Below the pieces are notes generated by a model. The model did not search any database and was not told where the DNA came from. It was given only the letters and a program-made list of their open reading frames with translations. Source: Gongronella butleri (lineage: Eukaryota; Mucoromycota; Mucoromycetes; Mucorales; Cunninghamellaceae). Taken from it: DNA of 64,000 bases. The translations under genes were made by a program, and so were the position numbers. Location: NCBI GenBank assembly GCA_025201375.1, contig JAIWZP010000025.1, positions 186,001-250,000 on the forward strand. Direction: 5' to 3'. Below, piece by piece: positions 6,690-64,000 of the stretch (position 1 is the stretch's first letter; every line of letters begins with the position of its first letter).

Positions 6690-8130
6690 TTTTTTTGTTG
6701 TGTCTGTACCGAATTTGGCCACTGATTCATTTGAGACGACTTCCGCTTCAATACATTGCGCCCTTGCCACGTGCGCTAACAAAATGGAGAAGATCTTATC
6801 CCCCTTTTGCCGGGCGCGTCCTTCGGATCTTGTTCATCCGGTCCTATGTTTGAACTGGAGGATGATGAACACGAAACTCCAACGATGTCAATTTTTTTCA
6901 GTGATCGGATTACTGAATCTTGAGGAAATATATTTTGCATAAATCAGGGCCAAATCGGCCCCGTAAAGGCTAGCTCGCCGAGATCATAATGCGATGTCCC
7001 TAAACCACAAGCGCTTCTACCACGTTTGTCCGCTGATTCATTTAAGGCGACTCACGCGTCGGGGCGCTCAGCCGTTGCTGCAGTACGAGACCAAATGGTG
7101 GTAAATTTACCCCCTTTACACCTATGTAACTGGCGCTACGTTGGAAACTTACTCATCTGGTCCCAAATTTGGACCAGTTGATGGTAGAGCCAATTCTCCA
7201 ACGGTGTTAATTTTTTTCGCAAATCGGATCATTCAGTCGCGAGATAACTCGAGATTCATGTTTGCAGGTGAAAACCCGTAGCCAAACAATATTTTACGCG
7301 TTTCTCTCGATGAATCTGGCCATCTAGCTCAAAACATAGACCATTGAATAATCGACCCAAAAAGTCGATGATGCCAAGTTTTTCCAGAGATCGGATCACT
7401 CAGTCTTGAGAAAATGCATTTTTCATAAAATCAGGGCCAAGTCAGGATCAAAACGACCCCTAAAGGCTAACTCGCCGAAAACTTGAAGCGATATCCCCAA
7501 ATTACAAGCGCTTTCACCGCGTATGACCGCCGATTCAGTTGAGGTGACTCACGCGTCGGGGCGCTCAGCCCTTGCCACCGTACGAGACCAAATGGTGCTG
7601 ATGTTCCCCCATTTACGCCTATGAACCTGGGGCTTTCTCAGAAACTTGCTCATCTAGTCCCAAATTTGGACCAGTTTACAGTAAACCCATTTCTCTAATG
7701 GTGTTAATTTATTTCGCGAATCGTATCGCTCAGTCTCGAGAAATCTTGAGATTCGTGTTTGCTGGTGAAAACCCAGTGGCATATAATATTTTACGTATTC
7801 CTCCCGATGAACCTGACCAAATGGCACCAAATTTACACCAGTGGATAATTGACTCAAAAATACAATGATTTCAAGTTTTTCACAAATCGGATCACAACAT
7901 AGTCTTGAGAATTATCGAGATTCGAGTTACTACATAGTGAAAACGCAGGCGCAAAAGTCGATCAAACACTGGATTAATTTTCAGACTCTCTTTTCTCGAC
8001 AACTGGAAAACCAACCAACGGTGCTTTTGAAATATCAAAGGCAGCTGTTAAATTTTTATCGAATGGGACCAATTTCATCGATGGATGGCTAAAACTCGCA
8101 GAGAAATCCACTTTTTCATCAAAATCTTTG
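6690..8130 (+). repeat. Dispersed repeat A, copy 1 (with internal repetition)
   Basis: This non-coding block is paralogous, in the same orientation, to 32230-33810. Shared landmarks include ATGGAGAAGATCTTA, CCGGGCGCGTCC, GGATCTTGTTCATCCG, TAAAGGCTAGCTCGCC and GCGTCGGGGCGCTCAGCC. Inside the block the unit repeats after about 490 bases (compare 6950-7250 with 7440-7740). The end (7960-8130) carries the 'C' segment with TTTTCTCGACAACTGGAAAA, also seen at 12820 and, in part, near 60090. Short unrelated open frames run through it; nothing looks like a transposase or reverse transcriptase. Limits are approximate. Confidence 0.75.
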
Positions 8131-9906: not shown

Positions 9907-10113
9907 CCGTGGCTCTCAAAAGTGATCCAAATTTTGGGAATCTCACACAAATTTTGTTTGTTCTCATTCAATAATGATCGGATAAAAACGCTATTTATAC
10001 TATTAGATAGCCCTATTTGAATTCTATAATGTGTTAAAATTTCAATTTGATATGTTCAATATTGATCGAGCTACAGCGCGTAATAAAATCGGAGTTATTT
10101 GGATCACTTTTGA
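9907..10113. repeat. Left terminal inverted repeat of the Tc1 element
   Basis: It pairs with 11328-11538. The outer end has CCGTGGCTCTC and the inner end has GGATCACTTTTG. At 10014-10015 it has a plain TA where the right repeat has a five-base insertion. Confidence 0.93.
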
Positions 10114-10143
10114 CGCGTCGCTACTTTTTTTTTATTTTTTTAT

Positions 10144-11163
10144 TTAATATTTCGTCCAACGACCGTTCGCCTTAATAACTGCTTTGCACCTGTCAGGCAT
10201 GGACTCAATGTACTTACGAACCATTTCTTTAGGAATGTCGTTGTACCAGACGTGCACTACACGCTCCCAAAGTTCATTCATGCCTTTGGGTACAGTCTCG
10301 TATCGAAAAAGCTTTTGCTTGAGCAAGGCCCACATGTTTTCAATTGGGTTAAGATCAGGAGACTGCGCGGGCCACTCCATGACTGTAAACGGCTGTTCCG
10401 CCAACCAGTCTTGCACTAAATGTGACTTATGCTTGGGGTCATTATCCTGTTGAAATATGACGCGCGCAGGATCGAACTCCTTTTCACGAATAGACGCCCA
10501 CAAATCTTCCTTTAGGATGTCCAAGTAGAGGTGCTTATCCATCGTAGTGTTTATCTTTGTGATATACCCAACACCCTCCCAGGTGATGCAGCTCCAAACC
10601 ATTACATTACCACCACCATGCTTCACGGTTTGTTGAACATGACGCGGTTGAATGTTTTCTTGGGGCCGCTTCCAGGCATAGTTCTTTCCATCCGAGCCAT
10701 ACCGGTTGATTTTCACTTCGTCTGACCAAATAACACGTTTCCAGTCTTCGATGGTCCAGTGCTGATGCATGCGAGCCCAGTTTAAGCGTCGAATTCGGTT
10801 GACTTCACTGATGAGAGGTTTTTTTGGCTTCACAAAGGCAACTAGCCCTGCTTCCTGCAGTGCTCTACGAACAGTATGAGTACTGACAACAATACCGTGG
10901 TCCTCCTGTAGCTTGTTTTTGACTTCCACCGCATTTTCCACACCAAACTTGGTGATGGCACGCACGCAATACTTCTTCATGCGATCGTTGAGAAGAGTTG
11001 GACGTCCCATTGTCGCCACTTTTGCAACCAACGGTTTGGAAACGCGTAGTCTTTGGACTGCACCATAGCTAGCACCAGTCTTCCGCATAATTTGGCGGAT
11101 AGAGAGCCCGTCCTGAACGTGCTTGAGAATGCTGTTTCGCTGATCAGTAGTTACTTTGCCCAT
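10144..11163 (-). CDS. Tc1-family transposase (DD34E)
   Basis: 339 residues in one uninterrupted frame. The N-terminal third is a paired-type helix-turn-helix DNA-binding region (KHVQDGLSIRQIMRKTGAS, then GRPTLLNDRM with the GRPR-like hook common in Tc1 proteins). The catalytic triad is Asp in VIWSDEVKINRYG, Asp in VIFQQDNDPKHKS, and Glu in SPDLNPIENMW. I count 34 residues between the second Asp and the Glu, the DD34E spacing of the Tc1 group. The length is normal for a full transposase (about 340). It carries out cut-and-paste transposition into TA sites. No frameshift or stop interrupts it, so this copy may be recent or active. Confidence 0.96.
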   Translation of the reverse strand: MGKVTTDQRNSILKHVQDGLSIRQIMRKTGASYGAVQRLRVSKPLVAKVATMGRPTLLNDRMKKYCVRAITKFGVENAVEVKNKLQEDHGIVVSTHTVRRALQEAGLVAFVKPKKPLISEVNRIRRLNWARMHQHWTIEDWKRVIWSDEVKINRYGSDGKNYAWKRPQENIQPRHVQQTVKHGGGNVMVWSCITWEGVGYITKINTTMDKHLYLDILKEDLWASIREKEFDPARVIFQQDNDPKHKSHLVQDWLAEQPFTVMEWPAQSPDLNPIENMWALLKQKLFRYETVPKGMNELWERVVHVWYNDIPKEMVRKYIESMPDRCKAVIKANGRWTKY

Positions 11164-11327
11164 TGCTGGAATGCCGGTAATGAGCTAGTGATTCGACGGT
11201 AATGAAGAGTAGAAAGTGACTCCAACAAAGAAGACAAGGAAAGTGTGCCTAGAAAGAAAAAAAAAAAGAAAAAACAACCTGCTCCAAAACCCCGATCAGG
11301 CAGGAGCAATTTCAGGCACGTGGGCGG

Positions 11328-11538
11328 CAAAAGTGATCCAATTGACTCCAATTTTATTACGCGCTGTAGCTCGATCAATATCGAACATATCAAATTGAAA
11401 TTTTAACACATTATAGAATTCAAATACAGTAGGGCTATCTAATAGTGTAAATACTGTTTTTATCCGATCATTATTGAATGAGAACAAATAACATTTGTGT
11501 GAGATTTCCAAAATTTGGATCACTTTTGAGAGCCACGG
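11328..11538. repeat. Right terminal inverted repeat of the Tc1 element
   Basis: Near-perfect reverse complement of 9907-10113. It carries an extra CTGTA-type five bases (TACAGTA at 11425-11431 on the plus strand) at the position of a plain TA in the left repeat. Confidence 0.93.
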
Positions 11539-11540
11539 TA

Positions 11541-13850
11541 CAAGGGGGTCATTTTATCCCTGCCCGGCAACACCGATGCGCAACATTTGTACGCTTGCAA
11601 CGCCCAATCAAACATTTCAGCTTCGCTTTTCTCGGCAATGGACAAGAAAAAGGATGGCGTGCTGCTGTGACAATATATGTAGAATTCGATTCTCTGTCGG
11701 ATGAACCATGTTTCACCAGCGTACGACCAAAAGTGATGCGGAAATTCCATTTTCTAAAATTTGGCTTTGATTGCCCGTTCCTCGAAAACAGCTTGATCGA
11801 CCCCCGATTTTTATTGCAGATTTGCTTGGAAAGAACGGGTCAATGCACCTAATTATATGACTCTCAGATGTCCAATGTGTAGGTTGCCAAACGGATTTGA
11901 GAGACCTGAGCCTCTCAAAGCGGGGGACCCTCCAGATGCATATTGACCTGACCCACCCTTTTTTTTCTACATAAATTTGAAAAAAAAAGATTTCGTCACC
12001 AAGGACTCATCGCAGCTCCACGAAACTTTTACATGTAGTGGATGTTGCTCCTCTCTTCTCAGAAAAAAATAAAAATCCAAAGGTCAATCATGTGGTTTGT
12101 CGGGAAGCACGGCATTGCTGAAAATTTGGCTGTTGCGCGTTTTTGTACTGTACTGTACTGTACAGTATACAGTAATTCATTTCGCAGTAAAATCATGATT
12201 CGATCATCGCCAAACTTTGCCACTTGGCTTTTTCAGCGTCCCTCTTTGAAAAAAATTAACAAACCAGATGTTGATCGGGCCGTTTTCGTGGTACGCGCCG
12301 TTTTCAAGAATTGGCACAAATCCATGGATGACCAACACAAATCAGGAATCGATTGCCTCCTACGTACCCTTTGCCTTTTGATGACTATTTCGCCGCGCCT
12401 TATTCAACAACACAACATGAAACCCCAAGACTGACTGGATCGTTTTGCAGATGAATTCGAAGTCTCGACATTTTTACAAATGCAGAATTACCGTAAATGC
12501 CACAAATCATCATACTGTAGTTGGGTGGCCCAAAGTAACGTAGTCTACTGTACACATACAGTAATGTTTTTTTTACCGACGCGACTCTTTGAAAAACCGT
12601 TCAAACCAGGAGTCGACCGAGCGAGTCATTGTGCAGATGAATCCACCAAAATTCAGACATTTTCACAAATCCGGCACGAGCTTCTCAAAATATTTTCTGG
12701 ATCGCGGTGAAATGGCACCGATCGAAAGAGACGCACTCGGTGTCATTTCCTGATTGTTTGCTTGCCGATGGATGAACTTTGCCCGCTTGCAAAAGTCGCT
12801 CAAACATTGTATAAATTTTCAAACTTGCTTTTCTCGACAACTGGAAAAATAACCAACGATGCTTTTAATATGTCAAATGCTGCTGCTGAATCTCCACCGA
12901 ATGAAACAAGTTTCACGGCGATCTGATCAATACTGGCGGAGGAAATATACTTTTTCAACAAAAAATTCAATGACGATTTGCTCGACAACTGTCTAGTCAA
13001 CTTTTGATTTTTATTTCAGATTTAATCAAAAACAGGGTGGCAAAGCATCTAATGGGATGACTTGCAGGACGCTAGCTTGGGGTTTAACTTTTTGCATCGG
13101 TCATTTCTTCACCAGCTTGCAGTTCAATCTACAGCGCACAAAAACCTGCAAAAAAAATACAGAAAAAAATTCCATGCAATTTACGCACTAAATTTGGAAG
13201 TGTCAAACTTAAATTTTTGCAAAAAAATCTTGCCCAAAGTAGGCACTTTTCTCAGTCGATCGCCGTTCATGCGTCACTCTTTGGGCCTTTTTTTTTTACG
13301 TTGTTGGGGAGACCTGTCATTTTGTCAGCCAATAGCAAATTGTCGAAGTTACTTGTTTGGGATGCATTGATCACTCGGAGTTCGAATTTTCCAAATTTGG
13401 CATTTTCTGAGATTGAAAAGTGTGACCCCTGAGTGACCCCTGAATTTTTCAAAAGTGGTCGTAGCGCTTTGGGGGTTTACGTAAGCTTTTTTGTTGCAAA
13501 TTTTGCATCGAACTCGATGCGGCTATGATATTTTTGAGACGTCTCGACCATGCAAATGGACAGATGAATGCAAAATAATACAAAATATAAGGCTTTTGGC
13601 ATTTTCAAATCCAAGAAAAATCGGGCGGGTTCGTCTTGAGTACTACTGGGCCGTAGTTTAAGCTCTGAAGCATTTTTCATTGGCGCGCAAGCAGGTTGCA
13701 AAAAAAATTTCTGGAGGCACAGTAGGCCGCCAAAGTCTGAAAAACACGCTCTTTGATTGATCTTTACAGTAATAAATGGTAAATGTGTACGTTTTTGTGC
13801 AATATTGCGTGATGCTTCAAGCATGGAAATGATAGAACGCGTCCGTTTCT
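11541..13850 (+). repeat. Dispersed repeats C and B, copy 2
   Basis: A degenerate, non-coding mosaic. Segment C (about 12770-13020) matches 7960-8130 and 58980-60110 (CTCGACAACTGG, and GATTTTTATTTCAGATTT followed by GGCAAAGCATCTAAT). Segment B (13020-13740) matches 33810-34470 and 60110-60730, with landmarks TTTTTGCATCGGTCATTTC, CATTGATCACTCGGAG, GTGACCCCTGAATTTTTC and AATCGGGCGGG. It contains many TA-NNN-TA words. No coding capacity is credible. Confidence 0.7.
12146..12174. repeat. Stacked TA-NNN-TA array
   Basis: It reads TA-CTG-TA-CTG-TA-CTG-TA-CAG-TA, followed at once by another TA-CAG-TA. The period is five bases and the inner triplet is CTG or CAG. Interpreted as superimposed excision footprints of a TA-targeting element with CAG..CTG ends. 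Confidence 0.7.
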
Positions 13851-14430
13851 GTTCATTGGAATCAAAATACTCTATGGACAGATTATATAAAAGTTTTATT
13901 TGTGTTTAAAAATGCAAAACGGGTGAAAATTGTGCCTTTGGAAATTTTCTCGGGCGCTTCCTGACGGATTTTTATTGGAACAGATTTAAGACGCGCTTTG
14001 CTCTTGCAGAAGTGACCACGCGTAGGAATTACAGTACAGACCAACCGCCGAGGAACACTTGGTGTATTTTTATACCGTACATAAAATTTTGGCCTCTGTT
14101 GCTTTTGAAACTCTTGCCAAATGCCGTGCGAAGACCCCCTGCTTGATCTTGCTGTACCTACTACAGTATCAAGCACAAATTGATCGATCAGTATTGAATA
14201 CTATAACAGCATGATAGTCCATGAAGCTAAAAACATCGAAAAAAATATTTTTATGCATTAATATGCCTGTTTTTCATTGCCTTTTACCCAGTATGCGCTG
14301 AAACACAAACCACGGGACACAAACCCAGGGGCAGCAACGAGAAATGAAAGACCGCTATTCTTGTCACATTTCAACTTGTTCTTCTCGTCTCCTCTTTTTT
14401 TCTCGTCTTTTTTCTTTTCTTTCTAATACC
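13851..14430. other. Intergenic region upstream of dolichyl-diphosphatase
   Basis: The tail of the repeat block gives way to a pyrimidine-rich leader (14380-14428) just before the ATG. TACAGTA occurs at 14030 and 14162, and TACCGTA at 14073. No clear TATA box and no gene seen. Confidence 0.5.
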
Positions 14431-15241
14431 ATGGTCGACGACAGCGTGGTGCTGACGTCTCTGTCGCTGACACACGTGCAATTTGAGCGTGGGGATCCCA
14501 TTGCGTACTTGTTCGCCTACATCACCTTGGGACCTATTGCCATTATGGTCTTTTATGCATCTGTGCTCGTTTCTCGGCGCGAAGTCGCCATTGGCCAGAT
14601 GTTGCTCGGGCAGCTTGTCAATGAGGTGGTAAACACAGTGCTCAAAGAGTACTTTCAGATAGCACGACCGCATGGTAAGCGCGAAACTGGCCCGCAAAGC
14701 GCGTTTTGGCTAATTTTTTTTTTTGGCAATTTAGATCACCTCGGCACGGGCTACGGCATGCCGTCGAGCCACTCGCAGTTTGTATGGTTCTTCACGACGT
14801 ATGGCGCGCTGTATCTTGTGCGCCACATTTCACTAAATCAGGCATTGCTCTGGAAACCTGCTGCCATCTTGCTGATGATGCTCATGTCCCTGCTTGTGTG
14901 CTGGTCACGGTAAGTAAATTTGCTTGCCATTGGTGGCTCCACGTGGCATGTGTGCCTGACTTTTTTTTTTTTTTTTTTGACAATTGGGCAGAATTTACCT
15001 CGGGTATCACTCGATTGAGCAGGTGATGGCTGGCAGTGCCGTGGGTGTTGGCAGTGGCGTGGCGTGGTACGTATTGATGGAGCGGCTGCGGAAGCGCGGC
15101 TGGGTCCAATGGCTCGTGTCGACGCGTCTTGCGCACTGGCTGTACCTTCGCGACATGCGTGACATTGACAATGTGCTCGAATGGGAGTACAATCACTGGG
15201 CAGGGGCGACAAAGAGTAGATTGAAAAATAAAAACGCATAG
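14431..15241 (+). CDS. CAX4: Dolichyl-diphosphatase (PAP2 superfamily)
   Basis: This ER membrane enzyme dephosphorylates dolichyl diphosphate on the luminal side, recycling the lipid carrier used in N-glycosylation. Three exons join in frame: EYFQIARPH|DHLGTGYGMPSSHS and SLLVCWSR|IYLGYHSIEQVMAG. The three PAP2 phosphatase motifs are visible: K-E-Y-F-Q-I-A-R-P (motif 1), YGMPSSHSQF (motif 2, which replaces PSGH) and SR-x5-H-x3 in SRIYLGYHSIEQ (motif 3, with Glu where Asp is usual). Four or so hydrophobic segments are present. Length of about 220 residues suits the DOLPP1/Cax4 family. The start MVDDSVVLTSLSLTHVQFE follows a pyrimidine-rich leader. An AATAAA lies inside the last codons, 12 bases before the stop. 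It converges with the CaMK gene. Confidence 0.93.
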
Positions 15242-23050: not shown

Positions 23051-26000
23051 ATGCCTTTAATATCTAGTCGCACGGGAGGGTCGTATGCGGCTGTGGTTGG
23101 ACAAGGAATTCACCGACTTGCAAAGGTGTCAGCGCGACACCCTATTGAGATGATCGTCTCTGTGCTGATGGGTGCGTCGTTTGCGTACTTTTACCTGTTC
23201 AACCTTGCACGGTCGTCGGATTTGTTCCTTGGGGCGTCTGCTGCTGCGCGGTTCTCGCCAACAAAGGTATACTCGCTTCAAGGCGAGCCATTCTCGCTGA
23301 TGCCTTCGTCGGCGGTGTCAGCTGTCAATCTGTCGGTCAAGCAAGTGCATATTGCCTCTGCCGAAGCCGCAGCCATCCAGCGGTTCCAGCATTTACTCGA
23401 ACAAGGCATTTACGTCCCTGATGGCAGCTCCACGCAATTCAATTACAAGGACCTTTGCTTCAAAGCGCCCGATTGTCTCAACATTGCACCTTTTGCACCC
23501 GACACGGCTCAATTCGTGCTTTCTTATGTCTTCAACACGTCGACCGCCTTCCGCCGCAATCTTGCCGACGTGTGGGAGTACAAGGTGGCCACGTTGCCGC
23601 CTGCAGAGCTTGTTTCCGCAGCATCTTCGGCTTCGCACGAGAATCTGTTTGTCTGGCTGTTCATCCTGTCGCGCAATGTGATTGCCCACCTCCGCGATAT
23701 GATCAAGGTCGCCGACAATGTCGATATTGTCGTTGTTCTTGCCGGCTATGTGATGGCCATCTCCACGGTCATCTCTTTGTATCTCAACATGCGCTCCATT
23801 GGCTCGCGCTACACGCTGGCCACCGCCGTCGTCGTCAATGGCCTCTTTTCCTTCATCCTCGGCTTCCTCACCGTCTATGCCCTTGGCATCAAGGTCCATC
23901 CCCGCACACTTGCGTAAGAAAAATGCAAAAAAAAAAAGAAAAAAACACGGAAAACGTCTTCCGACGGCGGGTCAACTTTGTCGAATTGAGAGAATGGCAT
24001 CTTAATTCCTACCTTTTTTACTATTCTAGTGAGGCGCTGCCGTTCCTTGTGGTGACTGTTGGCTTTGAGCGCCATTTCAAGCTGACCAAGAGCGTTTTCC
24101 TTGCGCGCAAGACGTCGCCCGTGTCCAAGCAGGATATTTGGAAGACGGTGCTGTCGGCCGTCGACACCATTGCATTCCCACTGGCGCGTGATTGCTGCAT
24201 CGAGATCTTTGTCTTGTGTCTCGGCGCAAAGTCGGGCATTGGCGGCCTGCGCGAGTTTTGTCTGCTCAGCGCCATCCTCTTGGCATTCGACCTGTTCTTT
24301 ATGTTCACATGGTACACGGCCGTCCTGGCCCTCAAGCTCGAGGTACAAAAAAAAAAAAAACATATATGAAAAAATGAAAATACGAAAAAAAAAAAAACGA
24401 CAAAACAAGCTGAAATCTCATTCCTCATTTTTACAATTAGCTCGGACGTATTCGCGAGATCAACAACATCAGCGTGCCATCCAAGGCGTCCCCTACACTG
24501 TCGTCTTCCCCCAAAAAGGAGCTTATTGGCAACACGATGGTCATGGCCTTTAGCAATGACGACACGCCCGCATCCAAGCAACAAAAAGCGGATGATCCCT
24601 TGATTGGTCGCGTCAAGCTTCTTTTGGTAAGTGTGGTGCCGCCTTAGGGGCAGAGCGTAGCCAATTGATCCGTAGCCACGGTGGCTCACCACCTCTTTTT
24701 TTTTTTTTTTTTTTTTTTTTATGACAGATTGCGGGTTTTGTCGGGATGCACGTGCTCAACCTTTGCTCGACATTTGAGCCGGGCCCACAGATTGACGTGA
24801 CGCAGCCAGGGATTGCTTCCATGCTTGATCAATTGCTGCAGCAGTACAAGAGCGACGCGTCTGCGGTGTTTCCATTGATGGTGGAGGTGTCGCCGTGGCT
24901 TTCGTTCCAAATGTCGCGGTCGCGATGGCAATTGGTCCCCGACACATTGATCCAGCCACTTGCTTCGTTCTTCAACGTGTACGACGTCTATGTTCAGCAC
25001 CCGGTCATCAGCAAATGGCTCACCATGGCGCTCTTTGTCTCGCTTTTCCTCAACACGTATCTTTTCAATGTCGTTAAGCAACCCAAGCCCGTGGTGAAGA
25101 CCCCTGTCCCTGTCACCACAACTTCTGCGGCTCCATCTGTCACGTCGCCTCCCATTTCTGCGGCCATTGCATCGCCAGTGATTGCACAACCGCCTCATCA
25201 CTCGCATCACCGCCGCCACCACGCGCAAAAGTCGATTACCAAGGATGAAATGCGGCCCATTGACGCGTGCCTCGCGTTGCTCCAGACGCCCGACGAATTG
25301 CACGACGAGGAGGTGATTGCTCTGGTGCAAGCGGGCAAGCTGGCACCGTATGCGCTTGAAAAGACACTGGGCAACTTGGAACGTGCCGTTGCTATTCGTC
25401 GGTCGCTTGTTTCGCGTGCGTCGGTGACCAAGACGCTCGAACAAAGCGCGTTGCCACTCGAGAATTACCATTACGACAAGGTGATGGGCGCTTGTTGCGA
25501 GAACGTCATTGGGTATATGCCAATTCCTGTGGGCATTGCTGGTCCCATGCACATTGACGGCGACGTGATCCACATCCCCATGGCCACCACTGAAGGCTGC
25601 CTCGTCGCGTCCACGGCGCGTGGTTGCAAAGCGATCAATGCTGGAGGAGGCGCAAGCACCGTGGTTACCGCCGATGGCATGACGCGTGGTCCCTGTGTCG
25701 AATTCCCCTCCGTCATGCGCGCCGCCGCTTGCAAACACTGGATTGAGAACGAAGGCGCTCAGATCTTGACCGACGCGTTCAACAGTACATCGCGATTCGC
25801 GCGTCTGCGCAAGCTCAAAGTCGCGCTTGCCGGCAAACTCGTGTTTATCCGCTTCTCCACCACCACCGGCGACGCCATGGGCATGAACATGATCTCAAAG
25901 GGCTGCGAAAAGGCATTGGCGATTCTCCACGACTACTTTGCCGACATGCAAATCATCTCGCTCTCAGGCAACTATTGTACAGACAAAAAGCCTGCCGCCA

Positions 26001-26614
26001 TCAATTGGATCGAGGGCCGTGGCAAGTCGGTGGTTGCCGAAGCCTTGATTCCAGGCAATGTCGTTGAAAAGGTGCTCAAAACCACGGTCGATGCCCTTGT
26101 CGAGCTCAATATCTCGAAAAACCTCATTGGCAGCGCCATGGCTGGCTCCGTCGGCGGCTTCAATGCCCACGCCGCCAACATCCTGACCGCTGTCTACCTC
26201 GCCACCGGCCAGGACCCTGCACAAAACGTCGAAAGCTCCAATTGCATCACCTTGATGAAAAACGTCGGTGGCAATCTCCACATCTCGTGCACCATGCCCA
26301 GCATCGAGGTCGGCACCATTGGCGGCGGCACCATCCTCCCGCCGCAGCAGTCTATGCTCGATCTGCTCGGCGTCCGCGGCCCACACGCCACAGAACCAGG
26401 CAAAAACGCCCAAAGACTCGCACGCATCATCTGTGCCGCCGTCATGGCCGGCGAATTGTCCCTCTGCGCCGCCCTCGCCGCAGGTCACCTCGTCAAGGCA
26501 CACATGGCACACAATCGCAACACGGCAGCCGCCCCACAGGCACCGGCCACGCCCTCAACAACACCAATTCAGGGTCGCAAAACGCCAGAATTGGGCTCTT
26601 GCATCAAATCTTAG
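23051..26614 (+). CDS. HMG1: HMG-CoA reductase (apparent 1-nt frame break in linker)
   Basis: It reduces HMG-CoA to mevalonate with NADPH, the committed step of sterol and isoprenoid synthesis, in the ER membrane. Exons are 23051-23913, 24030-24342, 24441-24627 and 24728-26614. Exons 1-2 encode several membrane helices ([39 protein letters not shown]). The last exon holds the catalytic domain: [16 protein letters not shown], the Glu in [10 protein letters not shown], Lys in [10 protein letters not shown], Asp in [11 protein letters not shown] and the His in [14 protein letters not shown]. The protein is about 1080 residues. Exon 3 starts in frame as LGRIREINN, but the helix [18 protein letters not shown] that spans the next junction is one base out of register with it. 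One extra T in CCCTTTG at 24600-24602 would explain this; it could be a sequencing error, a real frameshift or a missed splice. Confidence 0.93.
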
Positions 26615-32091: not shown

Positions 32092-32911
32092 GAAAAAACG
32101 ACATTGTCACCTCCAAAATCGCGCTAAAGATGCGTGCGCCATCAAAAATAAAACAGCTTGGCTTCTTTTTTTTTTTTGGTCTTGGCTTCTGCTGATATAA
32201 ATTTGTATAAATACCGGGAGCACCTTTAATAGCCTGAATTTACTAATGAAAACAAGGGCCAAAGCATCACTTACCGGTACGTACGCGTTTTTTTCTGATG
32301 ATAAACTGGATCGCGGAGCCCCAAATTCATGTCAGTTGTTGGTGCGATCAAGGTTGGAACGTATCAACTTTTTTTTTTGAGATCGGATGACACCGATACA
32401 CAGTCATGAGGAATTGCGTTTTACATAAACCAGGGCCAAGTCGACCCCGTGAAGGCTATGATAACTCGACGAGATCTCAACGCGGCCTCTCCAAAACACA
32501 AGCGCTTTGACTGAGTTTGGCCGCTGATTCATTTGAGATGAAGCACGCGTGGACATGTTGCGCCTTTGTCGCGTGCACTACCAAAATGGAGAAGATCTTA
32601 ACCCACTTTTGCCGGGCGCGTCCTCTGGATCTTGTTCATCCGCCGGCCCTACTGTATGTTTGAGCTACAGATTCATGAACACAAAGCCCCAACAAGCCCC
32701 CAACATTGTCAAGTTTTTCCAGTAATCAGATTATGATATACAGTCCTGAGGAATTGCATCTTGCAATTATCAGGGCCAATTCGACCCCGTAAAGGCTAAC
32801 TCGCCGAGATCTCGACGCGGTGTCCCAAAACCACAAGCGGCGCTTTACCGCGTTTGGCCGCTGATTCATTTGAGGCGACTTCATCGCCGGGGCGCTCAGC
32901 CGTTGCCGCGG

Positions 32912-32928
32912 TATGATATCATATGATA
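32912..32928. repeat. Stacked TA-TGA-TA-TCA-TA-TGA-TA insertion
   Basis: The paralogous copy at 7081-7092 reads CAGTACGAGACC with a single TA. Here the same TA is replaced by four TAs separated by TGA, TCA and TGA, a net gain of exactly 15 bases. Confidence 0.8.
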
Positions 32929-33696
32929 CGAGATCAAATGGTGGTGGTACGTAAATTTATTTACCGTACCCCCTTTATGCCTACCGTATGAAACTGGTGC
33001 TTCATCAGAAACTTGCGCATCTGGCGTGGACCCAAATTTGGACCAGTTGGCGGTAGACGCAATTCTCCAACGATGTTAATTACTACAGTATTTTCGCGAG
33101 TCGGATCACTTATTAGTCTCAAGAAATCCCGAGATTCGTGTTTGCTAGTGAAAACCCAGAGCCAAAATAGTATTTTACGTACGCGTTTCTCCCGATGAGC
33201 CTGACCATATGATATGATGCTAAATTTAGACTGGTGGATACTCAACTCAAAAGTTCGATGATTTCAAGTATTTCCAGTGATCGGTTCACTCAGCCCTAAG
33301 AAAACGCGTTTTTCATACTGTAAAACCAGGGCGGGCCAAAGCAGAATCAAAACGATTCCTGAAGGCTAGCTCGCCAAGAACTTGACGCGATGTCCTCAAA
33401 CCACAAGCACTTTGACCGCGTTTGGACGCTGATTCAATTGAGGTGCCTCCCGCGTCGGGGCGATGATCAGCCGTTGCCGTGGCACCAGACCAAATGCTGG
33501 TGAATTTACTCCATTGACGCCTATTATGAAACTGGCGCTTCATCAGAAACTTGCTCATCTGCCACTAAATTTGGACCAGTTGATGGTGAACCCAAGTCTC
33601 CAACGGTGTCAAGTTTTTTTTGTGAATCGGATCACTCAGGACTCACGACTCAGTCTCCTCGAGAAATTGCGAGATTCGTGCGAGGTGTTTGCTACA

Positions 33697-33723
33697 TACA
33701 GTATCATATCATACAGTATCATA
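33697..33723. repeat. Stacked TA-NNN-TA array (CAG, TCA, TCA, CAG, TCA)
   Basis: Five triplets separated by TA in strict five-base period, in a place where repeat copy 1 (about 7750-7765, GTTTGCTGGTGAAAACCC) has none. Confidence 0.8.
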
Positions 33724-34480
33724 GTGAAATCCCAGCGCCAAATAATATTTTACGCGTTCCTCCCGATGAGCCTCACCATATTATGGTGCCAAATTTAGAC
33801 TACCTGCAGCGCGCCGCTAGGGTTTTAGCTTTTTGCATCGGTCATTTCACCAACCTGCAGGCTGCAGCCCACTTAGCACACAAAAATGTGAAAATAAAAA
33901 ATACAGTAAAAAAATTAAATTCCATGCAATCCACGCAACATAATTTGGAAGGCTCAAACCTTAAATTTTTGCAAAAAAAAAAAATCGCACCAAAGTAGGC
34001 AATTTTCTCTGTCGATCGCCGTTCATCATGCGTCAATCTTTGGACATTTTTCTGAAAGTTGGGGCAATTTGCCATTTTGTCTGGCAATACCAAATTGTCG
34101 GAGTTACCTATTTGGGATGCATTGATCACTCGGAGATCGAAATTTACCGTTTTTGGGATTTAAATGTGTGACCCCTGAATTTTTCAAAGGTGGTCGTAGC
34201 GCTTTGGGGGTTTAAACTTTTTTGTTCCAAATTTTGCGCTGAATTCGATGCGGCTATTTTTGAGTGGGGTCGACCATGCAGATGGCCATATGAATGCGAA
34301 ATAGTACAAATAAGAGGTTTTTGGCTTTTTCAAGTCCAAAAAAAATCGGGCGGGTACGGTTGGGTACTGGGCTCTAGTGTAAGCCGTGACGTATTTTTCA
34401 TACGCGGGCAAGTGTGCTGTAAAAACATTTCTGGAGGCACTGCAGGCCGCCAAAGTTTGAAAAACGTGCTTTTTCTTCGT

Positions 34481-56970: not shown

Positions 56971-58559
56971 CGTAATACAAAAAAGACACACAAAGCCAAT
57001 AAAAAAGAAAAAGAAGAAAAAGAAAGGGGAAAAGATTGAGGAAATGGGCGCAATTTAACAATTGAAGTCTTGATCATGTGCCTTGCTTCAGGGTGTCATC
57101 CGCTCGCCCCTTGAAACAAAAAAAAAAAGGAACAATAGCCTTGCCAAATATTCCTCCCCCAAAATTGGGCCACGTTGCACTGGCACCACCCCCAATGTCT
57201 TGCCAAAGTGGGCGTGTCGCCTGATACATGCCCAGAATGTACTTTTACAACTTGCATGTGCAGTGTATCATTGGCCAGGACGCGCGTCTATCTCTGGGTG
57301 GCGCCAAATAGCAAATACCGCCATTTTACGACTGTTGGCTTGCAAATCAAGAAGATCTTGGTCCTGACTGCCCTCATTTTTTGTTGTATTATTTTAGTGA
57401 TCTTGGTTGCACAGCTGAACTTGGATCATCATCCTTCTTGCCCCACTTTTATTTGTGCATCTTCATGAAAATTGATTTACCCTATTCGGTCGATGCAAGC
57501 CTTCTCTTTGTGCATTTGTCACACGTGGACACAACCATTTGCACTTGCCTGCCTCTCATTGCAAGTGACCCAATCACCTGGAAATTGGCTGGGTTCAGCC
57601 CTACGTCAGCACTTTGTGACAAGAGTGCCCGAGATGCCAAAAACACGCTCTATCGCCCGACCTATTAGTAAAACATGTGCCTGAATGCACCATTCTCCCT
57701 GCGCACAGAGTGAAGCGTACGTTTGTTCAAAGCGGAGACCAAATTCAAAACACGCGAAAGGCGTAAAAAAAGGGCCAGCCAATTCGCATAGGGCGAACTT
57801 CTTGGTGGCGCGTCAAACAACGATCAGATCAACTTTGAATACAGATCATTATTAATGCATTTCTACCCCTTTGCCCATTCGTTCAGAGGGGAAAAAAAGG
57901 CGGAGGACGATTAGGCCATAGTCGAGACACACACCCTTTTCGCTTTTTTTTTCTCTCCGTCTATTGCTGAGCATCGCAAATCATGCATAGATTGCCTGCA
58001 AAGCAGCTTTGCCATTACGATATATTATTTTGGCGCGTCTCGTTTCAAAAAAGCTCTTGAAACCTAGTGGTCAACCAGACAGTTCTGGTGAAATCCCCAA
58101 AATTACCGATTTTCATCACAAATATGATACAGCACAATCTTAAACACTACTGTACCTAAGTACAGAGTTTCCACTGATCATTTGCGCGCCGTTGGAATGT
58201 TTTTGCACGCAAAAAGGACTTGTTCAGCCATCAATAAAAAAGGAAATGCACGCCAATGTCATCATTAGCGCTCGCCGCATCATCAGTCCACGCAAATTTT
58301 AGTCTCGATGCGCGCTAATTTAATTTCCAGGGCATGCGAATTCTTTTTTTGTGGTTGTCACACGAGCCGAACGCTATACAGTACAAATTGAGTCGAACGC
58401 CGGCCAAACGATTCGAACACGGTACAAAGTGAGTCGAACGCCGGGCAAACGACGCGTCGAAGAACGCTGGGCGAGTGAGTCGACAAGTTTGATTTTTTGA
58501 ATTTTTTTTTTTTTTTTGCCCAGCCAAATGAGACGCACCATATTACAGTATGATACGTA
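56971..58559. other. Long intergenic region, no gene seen
   Basis: It includes the OSBP promoter. A plus-strand open frame at 57175-57468 has a hydrophobic segment but no start context or splice partners, so I do not call it a gene. TACTGTA/TACAGTA words appear near 58152, 58380 and 58545. Three neighbouring phrases with GAGTCGAACGCCGG or a close variant (58388-58480) form a small local repeat of about 45 bases. Confidence 0.5.
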
Positions 58560-60770
58560 ATGATTGCCCTCAATGACGAAATTATTGCTTAATTTCTTTT
58601 TACACTTATTACTGTTATGTTACTGCCTCTCCAGTCTACAGGCGTACTTGTCGCTGGCAAAATCGAGTGTGAAAAATAAAAATGCGGTCCTGACGGAGGG
58701 TTTTTATTCGTACAAGATCAGGTCATCACCTCAGATCTGGTCCGCGCCTTTTTTCAGTCAACATGAAGTTGAAAACAGAGGTCAATCAATTGTTAAGTCG
58801 TCGTCGTTGTTGCTTGTGCAGCAGCAGATGAATCCAAAATCTCGAAAATTTCACAATTTTTACAATGTCTTCACAAATTCTTCCTCGATTGCCATGAAAC
58901 TTGCATTGTTCGAATCTGACAGGCTCGGACGTCATTTCCAGAATGTTTGTTCGCCCGATGCGTGACCTTCTTTGAACGCTTACGATGAATGCCGCTCAAA
59001 CATTAAATACTGTAAAATGTATGTAAATTTTCAACTTCGATGTTCTCGGCACCCGACAAGGTGATACACGGCGCTTTTTGCGTGTCAAAAGCATCCGGTG
59101 AATCTCCATCAATTGAAGAATGAGACCAGTAGTTGCATCGATGGATGGCCAAAACTCGCAGAGAAAATTTGTGAAATGGGTAGAGGAAAAAGTCAAGAAA
59201 AAGGGAACACAAGTAAATACTGTACTTTGAGAATCGAATACGGTTTACAGTATTAGGGATATGAAAAGATTCTCTATTTAAAAGAAATGAATAAAACTAG
59301 GGTTTCAAAATAGCAAGGTGTCGATTGATGTCTGGATGCATGGCTGTCAAGCACGCATGCATGTCCTTTCCGACGAGGCATGTACAGTATAAAGTGAGCC
59401 GCGCTCAATTAGCAATTGAGCTTGACTCCGGATATTGTTACAAGCAGGGACGCGCTGTCCATGGCCAATTGACCCTTGGACGCGTCTGAGGCATGAATGG
59501 ACAAGTAGGACTCCATTGGCAAGCCGACAGCCAGAAAAGAAAGTTTTTTTTTACAGTATCTGTCTTTCGGGCTCGCACGTGCATGCCCACATCCTGGTCC
59601 ATGCAATCCCTGTTCAGACATCACGAATAAGACATCTTATCAAGGGTGCGTACAAGAGAACGAATGGTAGAAAGGGTGCGCTGTCCTTTCATCACAAATA
59701 AAATCGTGATTGAATGGGTAAGACCTGGCGACAGCAGCCAACAACGTGTGAGCGGGGCTTAATTAGCCGGGCTAGGCAAGTGCCCGTCCATCTGGATTAG
59801 AATCCAGGAATGCGGCATAGAGCATGATGTACAGTACTGTACGACGCGATTTGTATCGCGTTTGCTTTCTTTCTTTTTTATTTCTTTTTTATACAATTTG
59901 AGAACGACAAGCCCAGACACGGCCAGCGCGTCTGACTTGGGGTAATTTTATCTGCTCTTTCACATGGACGTATCCATTGTGATTTTTAATTAAGAATATC
60001 ACGCTCTGCAAGCAGCAAATACAACAAAATTCACTTTTCGTCAAAATCTTTGATCGCGATTTGCTCGACAACAACGGTCTAATCGACCCCCAATTTTTAT
60101 TGCAGTTTTGATAACAAACAGGGGGGCAAAGCATCTAATAGGATGACTTGCAGCGCGCCAACTTGAGCTTATAAAACTTTTTGCATCGGTCATTTCACTA
60201 GGCTACAGCCCACTCAATCAACACACAAAAACGTGCAAATACTGTAAAAAAATAAAAAATACAGTAAAAAATAAAAATTCCATGCAATTCACGCACCTTA
60301 ATTTGAAGGGTCAAACCTTAGATTTTTGCAAAAAAAATCTTGCCCAATTTTTTCTCAGTCGATCGTCGTTCATCATGCATCACTCTTTGGGCTTTTTCTT
60401 GCGTTGGCGGGCGACTTGTCATTTTGGCAGCCAATAGCAAATTGTCGGAGTTGCCTCTTTGGGATGCATTGATCACTCGGAGATCGAAATTTCCCAAATT
60501 TGGCATTTTCTGGGATAGAAAAGTGTGACCCCTGAGTGACCCCTGAATTTTTCAAAAGTGGTCGTAGGTAGCGCTTTGGGGTTTTAAGCTTTTTTGCTGC
60601 AAATTTTGCGCTAAATGCGATGCTGCTGTTCTTGAGCGGGGTCGACCATGCAGATGGCTAGATGAATAAAAAATAGTACATTTCTGACGGTTTTGGCATT
60701 TTGCAGCCGAAAAAAATCGGGCGGTGTTGTATTTGCCGTCCTCAGAGCATAAGCGATCAAGTTGTTTAGA
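58560..60770 (+). repeat. Dispersed repeats C and B, copy 4
   Basis: 58980-59170 and 60010-60110 match segment C (ATCGATGGATGGCCAAAACT, CAAAATCTTTGATCGCGATT). 60110-60730 matches segment B, with the same landmarks as at 13030-13740 and 33810-34470. An inverted LTR-like piece (59230-59300) lies within it. Many TA-NNN-TA words are present (59246, 59388, 59553, 59834, 60239, 60258). Non-coding. Confidence 0.7.
59230..59300 (-). repeat. LTR-like fragment, inverted relative to 61360
   Basis: On the minus strand it reads AAATAGAGAATC, then AATACTGTAAACCGTAT. The plus-strand sequence at 61370-61408 reads AAATAGAGAATC then AATAAACCGTAT. The two are homologous and differ by an extra CTGTA that splits the AATAAA here. 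Confidence 0.55.
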
Positions 60771-61359
60771 CGCGCAATGGCGCGTACTTGGTATTTTTAC
60801 CAGTGCTGTAAATATAGGCAATTGCCGCACACGTCGCTCCGACGCTCCTTCCCAATCTGGGGTTTGATTCCCCGCTCTCGCTCAGGCCGCTGTCGGGCCG
60901 TCATCCGCATCGCATTGTAATCATGATGCCCGAAATAAGGAATGCGCACCTTTATCATCCTTTATGCTCTCACATTGAATTGTACGCGCTCATTACGTGA
61001 TGCATCCATCAATGCCCTTAATACAAATGATCCAGACATGCAGAGTCGTGGCTTGGCCATGACCAGCCACGAGCTCGGGCCAAGCATGGCAAAAATAGAA
61101 TATATAAAAAAAAAAGAGCCGCGCGCCGCAGGCGCTGGTTTCACCGGCTCAATGGCCATGCCCTGATCAGCCCCATGTATATGCATATCGATGGCATTCA
61201 ATGGATTGAAACAAACGCCCTTGATACCGATCCGAGGTCTTTTCACAATTGATGCAAAGCGACAGATAATATGTTTTGCCTCAGATACGGAGAGTCTCGA
61301 CAGCTCTCTCTTACAGCGTTGTTTCTCCGCATCTCACGATCTGATACCATCGTCCTTTC
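60771..61359. other. Gene-poor region, no gene seen
   Basis: Contains GGTTTGATTCC near 60862, which resembles a tRNA B box but has no matching tRNA fold. No credible open frame. Confidence 0.4.
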
Positions 61360-61470
61360 ACGTTTTGTATAAATAGAGAATCGTTTTACATTTCAATAAA
61401 CCGTATCTGTTTGCGATTGTATTTCTTGTCTTTTGTTTTCTTGTCACATTCTCCACCCACCAATTTTACA
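61360..61470 (+). repeat. Possible solo-LTR fragment (TATA plus poly(A) signal)
   Basis: TATAAATA at 61368-61375 is followed 20 bases later by AATAAA (61395-61400) and a T-rich stretch. This promoter-then-polyadenylation layout is typical of an LTR. An inverted homologue is at 59230-59300. LTR ends, primer-binding site and target duplications are not identified, so the class is uncertain. Confidence 0.4.
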
Positions 61471-61479
61471 GGCGGCATG

Positions 61480-63223
61480 TTCGACGTGAGCATTGCTTGG
61501 GCTGTAGCTTACAGTACTGTACTGTACAGTACAACAGTATCATCATACAGTATGCCGTGACGAATTTTTCATTATACTGTATAGCGGGCAAGTATCATAG
61601 GCTGTAAAAAATTTTCTGGAGGCACAGCAGGCCGGGCAAATTCCGAAACACGCGCTCTTTGGTTTTTAAAAGGTAAATACAGTAGTGTGTGCTATTTTTT
61701 TGCGGTGAAGCGCGGTGGTGTTTTAGTAATAATGAAAATGATAATACTGTATGTAGCACGCGTCAGTTTCTGTCCATTGAGATTGAAAGCGGTGGATCAA
61801 ACAACTTATTATTTGTGGTACAGTACAGTATAAATCATATGATAAAAATTGTGGATTTACGCATTTTCTCGGGCACTGCCTGCTTGATTACTGTATCATC
61901 CAACCCGAGAAACAACACGCTTCATGAAATCACGATTACTGTATGATAGCTCAGCATTCTATCAGTGTATTTGTACAGTATTGAGGACTGCTTAGCGAAA
62001 ACCTCGTTCGTACAGTAACACAAAAATGGCTTTTCTACAGTAAAACAACTCTAAAACAGACGTCTTTTTTAGCATCCAGCAGCTTCCATGCCCTTTGTTG
62101 GGATACACCTCTGAGCCGAAATTGAGCGGTCCAAGGAGCATGGATGCTATAGCAAGCAGGCTCACCAGAATATAATACTAAGGCCTTGAAAATACGTCCT
62201 GTTTACATGTTGTTCTCAGAATTCGCTTTTCTGCAAAACGCGATTTCAACATCGTTTTATCATACGTAGCTATTTGTTCCAGAAGAATTCGACTCGTCTG
62301 ACCACCTTAAAAAACTGTCACCTGCGCATGGACCTCTCCAACAAGCAAGCTTTATATTCATGCACCAAAGCGCCATAATGTACGCTTTGGCATCATTCAC
62401 AAATGCAGTCGGGCAGATTTTATGATATACGATTTATTACTGTAATAAACTGGCCCCATTTTTTTTACAGTACATTTACTGTATACTGTGCTTCCCTGTG
62501 TAATGAAGAAAAGCGGGTACGTACATGGCCCTGGAGGTTGGTCCAAATTTGTTGTCCATATCCTGTACCTGGGGTGAATGGAAAAACACGGGTTTTTGAA
62601 AAGACTGTAGGCGGGGCGGGGGGCTGAAACTGTCCAATAGCCCGAATTGTTCAGCCTCCCGGGATGAATGCATTTTCCCGATTTTTACACGAACTCCCTG
62701 GACCATGGGGTGCTTGTGGATTTGCTTAAAATCAAGTAAACGTGTCGTGATTAGGGGTAATGGACCGACCTCCCCTGTACACATGCAGATTCAAGGGTAA
62801 AAAAGACGCGAAATTATGTGACATTGGCGTAATACGTATTTGATCCCGTGGGTATCAAAAAATAAGCTGAAAAAGGCTCAAAAATAATAATTTACTTGCC
62901 TGGACACGCTCATTTTGCATTCTAACAATTTTGTAAGGAAAACGCGGACGCAAAGGTGTCTTTTTTATTGGCTAGCTAGTCTCTTAATACTTTTTCATGC
63001 TTGCAACATAGCCCAAATTTACAGTATGACGCAACAGTTTTGTGATATATGTATTTTGTGAAAGTATGCGCTGCGCCGCTGTGCAGGTCTTTTTTTTAGT
63101 TTGCTGATGTGGCCATTTCCTGGATGGCCTTGTCGCAAAATTGGCGTGTTGCTTGTTTCAGCTAAGATGCACACAAAAAAAAAAAAAGGATGAATTGCGC
63201 CAACATGCATGAGCAGTGCCGGA
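61480..63223. other. Repeat B remnants and dense TA-NNN-TA words
   Basis: 61545-61880 matches parts of repeat B (CTGGAGGCAC as at 13709 and 34430). TACAGTA/TACTGTA occurs near 61510 (stacked), 61575, 61677, 61745, 61821, 61893, 61937, 61975, 62011, 62035, 62440, 62467 and 63021. This is the densest run in the window. No gene seen before the stop codon at 63224. Confidence 0.55.
61510..61531. repeat. Stacked TA-CAG-TA-CTG-TA-CTG-TA-CAG-TA array
   Basis: Strict five-base period with CAG or CTG between TAs, mirror-symmetric overall. A related cluster with TATCAT and TACAGTA follows at 61538-61553. Confidence 0.75.
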
Positions 63224-64000
63224 TCAGATCACTTGGGCACGCGCCTCTTTCACTCCTTGTGCCCTTTTTGACTCGTCATTTACCATGTCTATCCCTTGGT
63301 CTGTTTGTTTGGCAATTTGCACAGCGTCAAATGAGGGAAAAATTAATTTGAATCGAAACTTGCATGCGCTAGAAAAAAAATGACGTGAGCGGACAAAAAC
63401 GCACTTTTTCTCGAATGCATGGTCACTTTTGACCTTCTCCTTACGCGGAAAAGAACTGTAAATTCTCAATTGCTCGATAAAGTCGCTGGTGGTCCGAGTG
63501 CACCTTGTGTATGAAGCCAAAAGGACGATTTGATTGCTTGACAACCTCGTTGTATGCCTGGCAGAGGATCATGCCGGTGCTTTTGGGAACAAATAAATAA
63601 GGAGGCAAGACATGTGTGAGGTGCTTTGCCACTGGACCGGGCACCTCCCTAATAAATAAAGATCTTACGCCAATGCAGCCCAAAAAAGTGTCTCATCTTC
63701 ATGCGGATCGGGGATCGCCTCGCTGGTGTGGTCCGACAAGAACGCGTGACATTGGCCTGGACAGATAAAAAAAAAAGAGATGAACAATTGCGAAACATGG
63801 TAAAAGCGAACAGTTTTTACCTAGAGGATTTGTGTCAAATGCGCCGGGGATCAGCCATGCCGGCATGGCTGGCGGCTTGTGATGATTGCGATTATCATCG
63901 TCGCCGTCATCATCGCTGACAATGGACGAGGTCTCTGAGCCAGACGTGCTAATGATCAAGTCGCGGATTTCTTGTGTGAATGACGTGCGTTTTGCGCCAT
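63224..64000 (-). CDS. Unidentified protein, C-terminal part (runs off right edge)
   Basis: Four exons join in frame on the minus strand: TSFTQEIRDLIISTSGSE... ending DTNPL|GQCHAFLSDHTSEAIPD, then TLFWAALA|REVPGPVAKHLTHVLPP, then ENLQFFSA|ACKFRFKLIFPSFDAV, ending EARAQVI and a stop at 63224-63226. All splice borders are canonical. An acidic stretch (VSDDDGDDDN) separates the N-terminal segment from a folded-looking region with conserved-type aromatic and Pro residues (VLPPYLFVPKSTG, NRPFGFIHKVHSD). I do not recognise a family; the gene's 5' part lies outside the window. The consistent frame through four exons makes it a real gene. Confidence 0.7.

Follow-up and report, generated by a model that had tools for sequence, protein, structure and literature searches.

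Five-base blocks at TA sites of Gongronella butleri repeats as probable Tc1/mariner excision scars, with paired scars as a candidate target of one CAG-ended family

In a 64,000-nucleotide stretch of the genome of the soil fungus Gongronella butleri (Mucoromycota), hereafter the window (G000:C29:186001-250000 of an assembly of 33.0 Mb in 110 contigs), repeats carry five-base blocks that turn a plain TA into TA-NNN-TA. We consider it very likely that these blocks are scars left by the excision of TA-targeting Tc1/mariner (DD34E) elements, with an additional CNG-TA-CNG target layer for one CAG-ended family. It is also reasonably likely that the transposon of this family is scar-seeking: its integration complex would need the TA to be bordered by CNG half-sites left and right, its own ends (CAG beside TA) and Tc1 scars would supply these half-sites, and its targets, being sites where insertions had been tolerated before, would form a self-made safe harbour in which every visit extends the chain and creates a further target. 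The scars themselves are of a known kind, but a whole family residing mainly in scar chains seems to be new. An ORF of the window (24746-26614) encodes 622 residues 100% identical to part of the Gongronella butleri HMG-CoA reductase.

The preliminary description of the window had compared two copies of a 1.2-1.6-kb repeat, repeat A. Both copies are present, but the repeat proved to be a unit of about 497 bp in tandem arrays. At least 107 matching segments exist in the genome, a minimum figure, as scoring covered 40 of 442 candidates. Our sample consisted of 38 fetched places and the two window copies, together 197 unit copies, whole or partial. Compared to the unit consensus, copy 3 holds 29 insertions and copy 1 a single one. 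The three five-base insertions described before are all present: the plain TAs of copy 1 at about 6843, 7422 and 7618 correspond in copy 3 to TACTGTA, TACTGTA and TACCGTA, respectively. Seven more stretches with scar triplets lie in copy 3, between 32457 and 33723 (Table 1). Copy 1 has a TACAGTA at 7677 that, in our own reading of the alignment, replaces consensus bases and leaves the length unchanged, and we therefore do not count it as a scar. Insertions of 3, 4, 5, 7, 8, 16 and 17 bases in copy 3 are of other or mixed origin and are not, or not fully, explained by the scar model.

Table 1. Positions of repeats, scars and the Tc1 element in the window
Feature	Position	Strand	Remarks
Repeat A copy 1	6690..7920	.	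Paralogue without the insertions; empty-site reference
Tc1/mariner element, CCG family	9907..11538	-	TA flanks 9905-9906 and 11539-11540; TIRs ~9907-10116 and 11324-11538
Intact 339-aa Tc1 transposase ORF, DD34E	10144..11163	-	
TACAGTA scar in right inverted repeat of CCG element	11425..11431	.	9 near-identical copies without it
Scar-rich repeat island	12000..15000	.	Four-scar chain at 12146
Repeat A copy 3	32230..33810	.	About three tandem units of ~497 bp, complete or partial, rich in short insertions
TATGATA scar word	32457..32463	.	Copy 3
TACTGTA scar	32650..32656	.	Copy 3, first example of the preliminary description
TATGATA scar word	32732..32738	.	Copy 3
Three-scar chain TGA-TCA-TGA, mixed orientation	32912..32928	.	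Copy 3
TACCGTA scar word	32962..32968	.	Copy 3
TACCGTA scar	32982..32988	.	Copy 3, third example of the preliminary description
TACAGTA scar inside 8-base insertion	33084..33090	.	Copy 3
TATGATA scar word	33208..33214	.	Copy 3
TACTGTA scar	33316..33322	.	Copy 3, second example of the preliminary description
Five-scar chain CAG-TCA-TCA-CAG-TCA	33697..33723	.	Copy 3
Scar-rich repeat island	58000..64000	.	Four-scar chain at 61510

The sharp indel peak at five that had been expected does not appear in the raw spectrum of repeat A insertions against the unit consensus, where lengths of 1 to 8 bases occur 123, 29, 50, 20, 27, 11, 14 and 10 times, and at +10 and +15 we found nothing beyond single cases. 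Among the 27 five-base insertions, 12 have the TA-NNN-TA form and 15 do not. We then used a collapse test, which takes every XY-NNN-XY word in the 152 repeat A copies that reach 120 bp (the other 45 were dropped) and determines if deleting five bases restores the alignment. The predicted centring on TA was confirmed: 14 of 91 TA words passed, compared to 9 of 3291 in the nine other strand-merged dinucleotide classes (Fisher p = 2.5e-17). The passing words use solely the triplet classes named beforehand, with CAG/CTG at 8/22, CCG/CGG at 3/6 and TCA/TGA at 3/13, while the remaining TA triplets gave 0/50. The scar signal is the TA anchor plus the triplets, not the raw length spectrum.

Scar words are strongly over-represented in the window. 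Compared to 200 dinucleotide shuffles in 1-kb blocks, we counted 60 TAC(A/T)GTA (shuffle mean 1.39, maximum 5), 27 TAT(C/G)ATA (mean 2.77, maximum 8) and 6 TAC(C/G)GTA (mean 1.27, maximum 5). Repeat islands covering 12.8 kb, delimited after the counts were known, hold 83 of the 93 words, and none of the 79 TAs in three ORFs checked is part of one. A larger set of 255.6 kb, made of the window and the loci fetched for repeats or transposases and so enriched by choice, showed excesses over the order-3 expectation of 16x for TACAGTA/TACTGTA, 6.9x for TATCATA/TATGATA and 2.7x for TACCGTA/TACGGTA; over the order-4 expectation, the first two each stand at about 5.4x. Genome-wide, TACWGTA occurs 16213 times, background included, and the reversed word 6355 times. 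Since the latter is itself subject to a background, this control is weak, and we rely on the shuffles and on double scars. The genome probably holds thousands of scars.

Scars also occur in chains. Runs of 1 to 5 scars were found 292, 31, 12, 4 and 2 times in the 255.6 kb. Neighbouring triplets in chains are a mixture of CAG, CTG, TCA, TGA and CCG in both orientations (255.6 kb and the first 100 genomic places listed). The double scars TACWGTACWGTA and TATSATATSATA are present 1613 and 639 times in the genome, compared to 12 and 1 for the reversed words. Within islands, scars are spread over the TAs much as random repeated hits would be, apart from a slight tail, and scar-making in general therefore seems to proceed without a strong preference for existing scars.

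Elements with matching ends had been predicted, and Tc1 elements ending in CCG and in CAG do occur in the genome; none ending in TCA or TGA was found as a scar source in the approximately 274 kb examined. Together with the TA anchoring and the triplets, these two families support the proposed origin from Tc1/mariner excision. The window itself contains an element with ends TA-CCG...CGG-TA, whose inverted repeats start with CCGTGGCTCTC, span about 210 bp and are 92.6% identical. Its transposase matches DDE_3 (8.3e-15) and HTH_Tnp_Tc3_2 (4.1e-14), both above the curated cut-off, and D240 is followed by E after 34 further residues, the DD34E spacing. The whole protein is encoded at 11 genomic places, window included, with 99-100% identity. 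In 10 copies of the family, TA stands immediately 5' of CCG at 19 of 20 junctions, the exception being the left end of L067, where TAC precedes CCG. The alignment of these 10 copies, window included, has 15 variable columns (two at the edge of L067), and the only indel outside A-run length lies at 11425, where the window copy reads TACAGTA and the nine others read TA. This is one recent event with a known empty site. Other CCG-type ends, TACCGTACCCTA, occur 23 times. Among the best 120 of 7326 matches, the window transposase is related, in a comparison by protein identity only, to Tc1-like transposases of other Mucorales (Rhizopus and Mucor) at 50-55% identity, with another relative at 85%. 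A second CCG-type element (L075:59-2773) has CCGTTGCTCCC near its ends and a transposase 70% identical, and holds an inserted 1006-bp element of the CAG family.

The autonomous CAG-family element encodes a DD34E protein of 341 aa (open frame 360) and ends with CAGTGCCCGGAC beside TA. The 34-residue DDE spacing was counted by eye; the automated motif gave no match. Residues 6-338 of the query are carried at nine places. The family has a DDE_3 match above cut-off (at C28:218515), inverted repeats and a flanking TA. A non-autonomous element of about 1006 bp has approximately 48 bp of its ends in common with the autonomous one and is a near-complete palindrome (L096 and sisters), a foldback whose two 418-bp arms, 99% identical, enclose a short centre. 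The end word, 18 bases starting with the TA beside the end, occurs 65 times per strand; copies without that TA are missed by this search. The first 100 of the 130 end words gave at least 41 pairs about 1 kb apart, 38 of which were fetched complete; C19:78523 (seen as L075), C26:496677 and C28:216696 were omitted. The interiors of the 38 vary in 49 of 1015 columns. One 3-bp duplication is common to 4 of these 38 near-identical elements (L102, L109, L120, L125).

Candidates for other sources were also inspected. A search of the 274 kb for TA-TCA/TA-TGA inverted ends, allowing up to 3 mismatches in arms of 14 bases, returned five pairs, none of which we count: four in L075 have their axis in common with its 1006-bp foldback and the fifth, in L069, lies in another long palindrome. 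No recurrent ends resembling an element end were found behind TATSATA. The mariner profile PF01359 gave zero matches, as it did in control genomes, so that an absence of such elements does not follow. Pogo-type DDE_1 gave three matches, each with internal stop codons. The degraded pogo-like L081 and L082 have ends CAGTAGGTTCTGG or similar beside TA, carrying CAG, and such elements might be the source of some CAG scars. A Tc1 remnant at L064:1073-2455 has inverted repeats of about 220 bp, 96% identical, that start with CACTGACTGAC beside TA; it represents a fourth terminal triplet, and words of the TA-CAC-TA class occur 6 times in the window.

We then analyzed where CAG-family elements sit. Around the 38 elements, the 76 flank triplets are CTG (36), CAG (35), CGG (3), CCG (1) and TTG (1); the TA beside the element end was given by the selection, the triplet before that TA was not. 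CNG lies against the TA on both sides in 37 of 38 elements, L100 having TTG on one side. The complete TA-CNG-TA is found in 72 of 76 flanks, and on both sides in 34 elements. No flank carries a TCA-class triplet (0/76), and the four CGG/CCG triplets are the scar type of another family. Nine autonomous copies, with 17 of 18 junctions read, have CNG in 17/17 and the outer TA in 15. Related families ending in CAGTGCCCTACC and CCGTACCC/CCGTCCCC, read in five elements (L062, L063, L065, L069, L080), have C(A/T)G before TA at 9 of 10 junctions, the tenth (L063) being altered. The window-type CCG family, in which CNG precedes TA at one of 20 flanks, is an internal control without this rule. The orientation of the inner triplets around elements was different in 20 and the same in 10 cases, which is not significant (p = 0.099).

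The flank triplet seems to belong to the target, since CTG and CAG are equally mixed although the interiors are nearly identical. The flanking scars did not arise after the insertion, because only one of 2469 TAs inside the 38 elements is scarred (a recent TA-NNN-TA case, L112). In the window, 8 of the 10 CWGTACWG sites are double scars, which points to scars as the main source of CNG-TA-CNG; such sites make up 10 of 2095 TAs. At least one flank carries two or more scars in 21 of 38 elements, while 19-25% of island TAs are in scar chains by our own sum; the enrichment test, run with 20/38 against 25%, gave p = 2.4e-4. In the present data, the preference for scars reaches no further than the 8-base CNG-TA-CNG context. 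Our reading of these flanks is that CNG-TA-CNG would be the integration target of the CAG family, the context reflecting a preference at integration. Two CAG-family elements, L110 and C28:216696 (L136), were located by eye within repeat A and are now flanked by TA-C(A/T)G-TA; the L110 site is a plain TA in window copy 1 and the L136 site a plain TA in the consensus.

The following sequence of events would account for these observations. A Tc1/mariner element would enter at a TA and duplicate it. At excision, the non-transferred strand would be cut three bases inside the element, leaving a 3-base 3' overhang on each flank; this geometry is taken over for Gongronella from known Tc1/mariner chemistry, as given in excerpts of PMC8151067. 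The overhangs could pair through their outer bases (C-N-G or T-N-A), with a mismatch at the middle base only, and repair in either direction would yield TA-C(A/T)G-TA, TA-C(C/G)G-TA or TA-T(C/G)A-TA. A cut staggered by 3 nt fits with triplets of the form C-N-G and T-N-A. Repeats of non-coding islands would keep the record of excisions, and the CAG-ended Tc1 family with its ~1006-bp derivative would enter a TA within CNG-TA-CNG, mostly formed by two adjacent scars. Direct observation covers the scars and their triplets, the CAG and CCG elements that match them, and the scars around those residents that we examined.

Growth of a pentanucleotide microsatellite by replication slippage could produce five-base blocks, and some blocks are indeed direct repeats, for example TATGATATGATA. 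We rejected this explanation, which we regard as highly improbable, on account of the mixed orientations and triplet types in the chains (CAG, CTG, TCA, TGA and CCG). Moreover, the 27 five-base insertions include no perfect tandem duplication, the TA type adding a triplet and a second TA, and the 14 words that pass the collapse test hold three triplet classes only, two of which match element ends. Two further explanations concern the residents. The flanking CNG might be carried by the element, whose true ends would then be CWGTACAGTGCCC, inserted at a plain TA and leaving single CWG scars. This would account in one step for the triplet on both sides of nearly every copy, for the single scars at plain TAs (219 of 235 CWG runs are single and 16 are longer chains in the window and L009-L075) and for the two recent single scars. 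However, a carried triplet does not fit the 36:35 mixture of its middle base among near-identical copies, nor the CGG/CCG triplets found four times. It is also at odds with the seven elements that lack an outer TA and yet have an intact inner one: natural sequence replaces the outer TA-triplet at one junction each of L100 and L121 and the outer TA of L075 and L138, and a neighbouring element's end takes its place at L105, L130 and L077, in the last case with one TA common to two elements. The TA adjacent to the element is intact at all these junctions, and two elements of C28 lie head to head with a single TA common to both. The scars beyond the first, present in 21 of the 38 elements, also argue against it, and we think it unlikely.

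Alternatively, residents may be found at double scars with no preference at integration, if copies elsewhere exit fast and flanking scars block excision. A single family could then make the single scars, survival sites would be explained, and the ratio of about 65 intact-end residents to 16213 TACWGTA words is, by our own reckoning, similar in magnitude to the frequency of CWG-TA-CWG (10/2095 TAs). But excision uses both ends, so that a scar on one side would be enough and residents with one-sided scars should be common; the CNG is absent on one side in one of the 38 (TTG in L100) and the scar in four. Such retention is, in our opinion, quite improbable. For the preferred reading, integration into CNG-TA-CNG, the single scars are the difficulty: single CAG scars at plain TAs predominate, including both of the freshest (window 11425 and L112), whereas none of the CAG-family residents read is at a plain TA. 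The explanation would be either a different CAG-ended family as the maker of these scars or a biased sample of residents.

We compared these features with known systems, using excerpts of the papers cited. The TA-C(A/T)G-TA scar is common to Gongronella and Sleeping Beauty, whose consensus footprints are TACAGTA/TACTGTA (PMC4378557) and whose terminal sequences give rise to the CAG footprint (PMC8151067). In contrast to Sleeping Beauty, the Gongronella scars are natural, probably number thousands, form chains and include CCG and TCA triplet classes. Stowaway elements, Tc1/mariner-type MITEs at TA, also leave footprints and re-inserted where a footprint existed: in intron 4 of the Triticeae beta-amylase gene, re-insertion took place at an earlier-footprint site, and all present Stowaway elements at that site lie within TA...GTA footprints (PMC1925063). 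That case concerns one locus across species; in Gongronella, a common context recurs at 38 loci of a single genome and follows a CNG-TA-CNG rule that a second Tc1 family does not obey. ZB has a palindromic target, ATATATAT, around a central TA, those of SB and Bari are very similar, and a palindromic TA-centred target was suggested as possibly common among Tc1-like elements (PMC7913693); the Gongronella CAG family differs from ZB, Sleeping Beauty and Bari by its putative target CNG-TA-CNG, which arises mostly from excision scars. In a literature judged mainly from the openings of abstracts, we found no report of scar-directed insertion of a Tc1 family, which does not imply that none exists. 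The terms 'transpos', 'Tc1' and 'mariner' are absent from the main text of the G. butleri genome paper (PMC9117579).

Excision normally leaves no trace in a genome sequence; here a repeat family keeps the record. Such a scar record would allow a genome-wide tally of cut-and-paste gain and loss, with probably thousands of events compared to tens of residents. In genomes of this kind, what looks like a pentanucleotide microsatellite or a short indel may be a transposon scar. Should the target reading be correct, the debris of earlier transposition would be an address and offer a route to safe-harbour targeting. The target reading predicts double scars as integration sites, testable in yeast, with TACAGTACTGTA strongly preferred over TACAGTA, TATGATATCATA and ATATATAT. 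At the 38 loci, targeting predicts TACNGTACNGTA as the empty allele and carried ends predict a plain TA.

Other insertions and elements were noticed. Of the repeat A insertions, 28 of 50 with three bases are perfect tandem duplications, compared to 10 of 29 with two bases and 3 of 20 with four; the 3-bp duplications may go back to slippage or to an element that duplicates 3 bp of its target and left them as scars. In copy 3, four-base insertions of TA-CG-TA style at 32948-32953 (TACGTA) and 33177-33184 (TACGTACG) are possibly 2-nt scars. At L031:420, L033:1188 and L013:908, 8-bp near-duplications with the seventh base changed, such as GTAAAGCG followed by GTAAAGGG, presumably resemble hAT-type footprints. 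Finally, a 336-aa DDE_3 gene is present in five copies about 99.8-100% identical at short loci (L054-L059, L048) that adjoin GC-rich repeats common to several contigs. These loci are probably contig ends and possibly subtelomeric. In the group L054-L059, 5 of 6 loci are short, the far end was not found, and the boundary is TA followed by CTGG.
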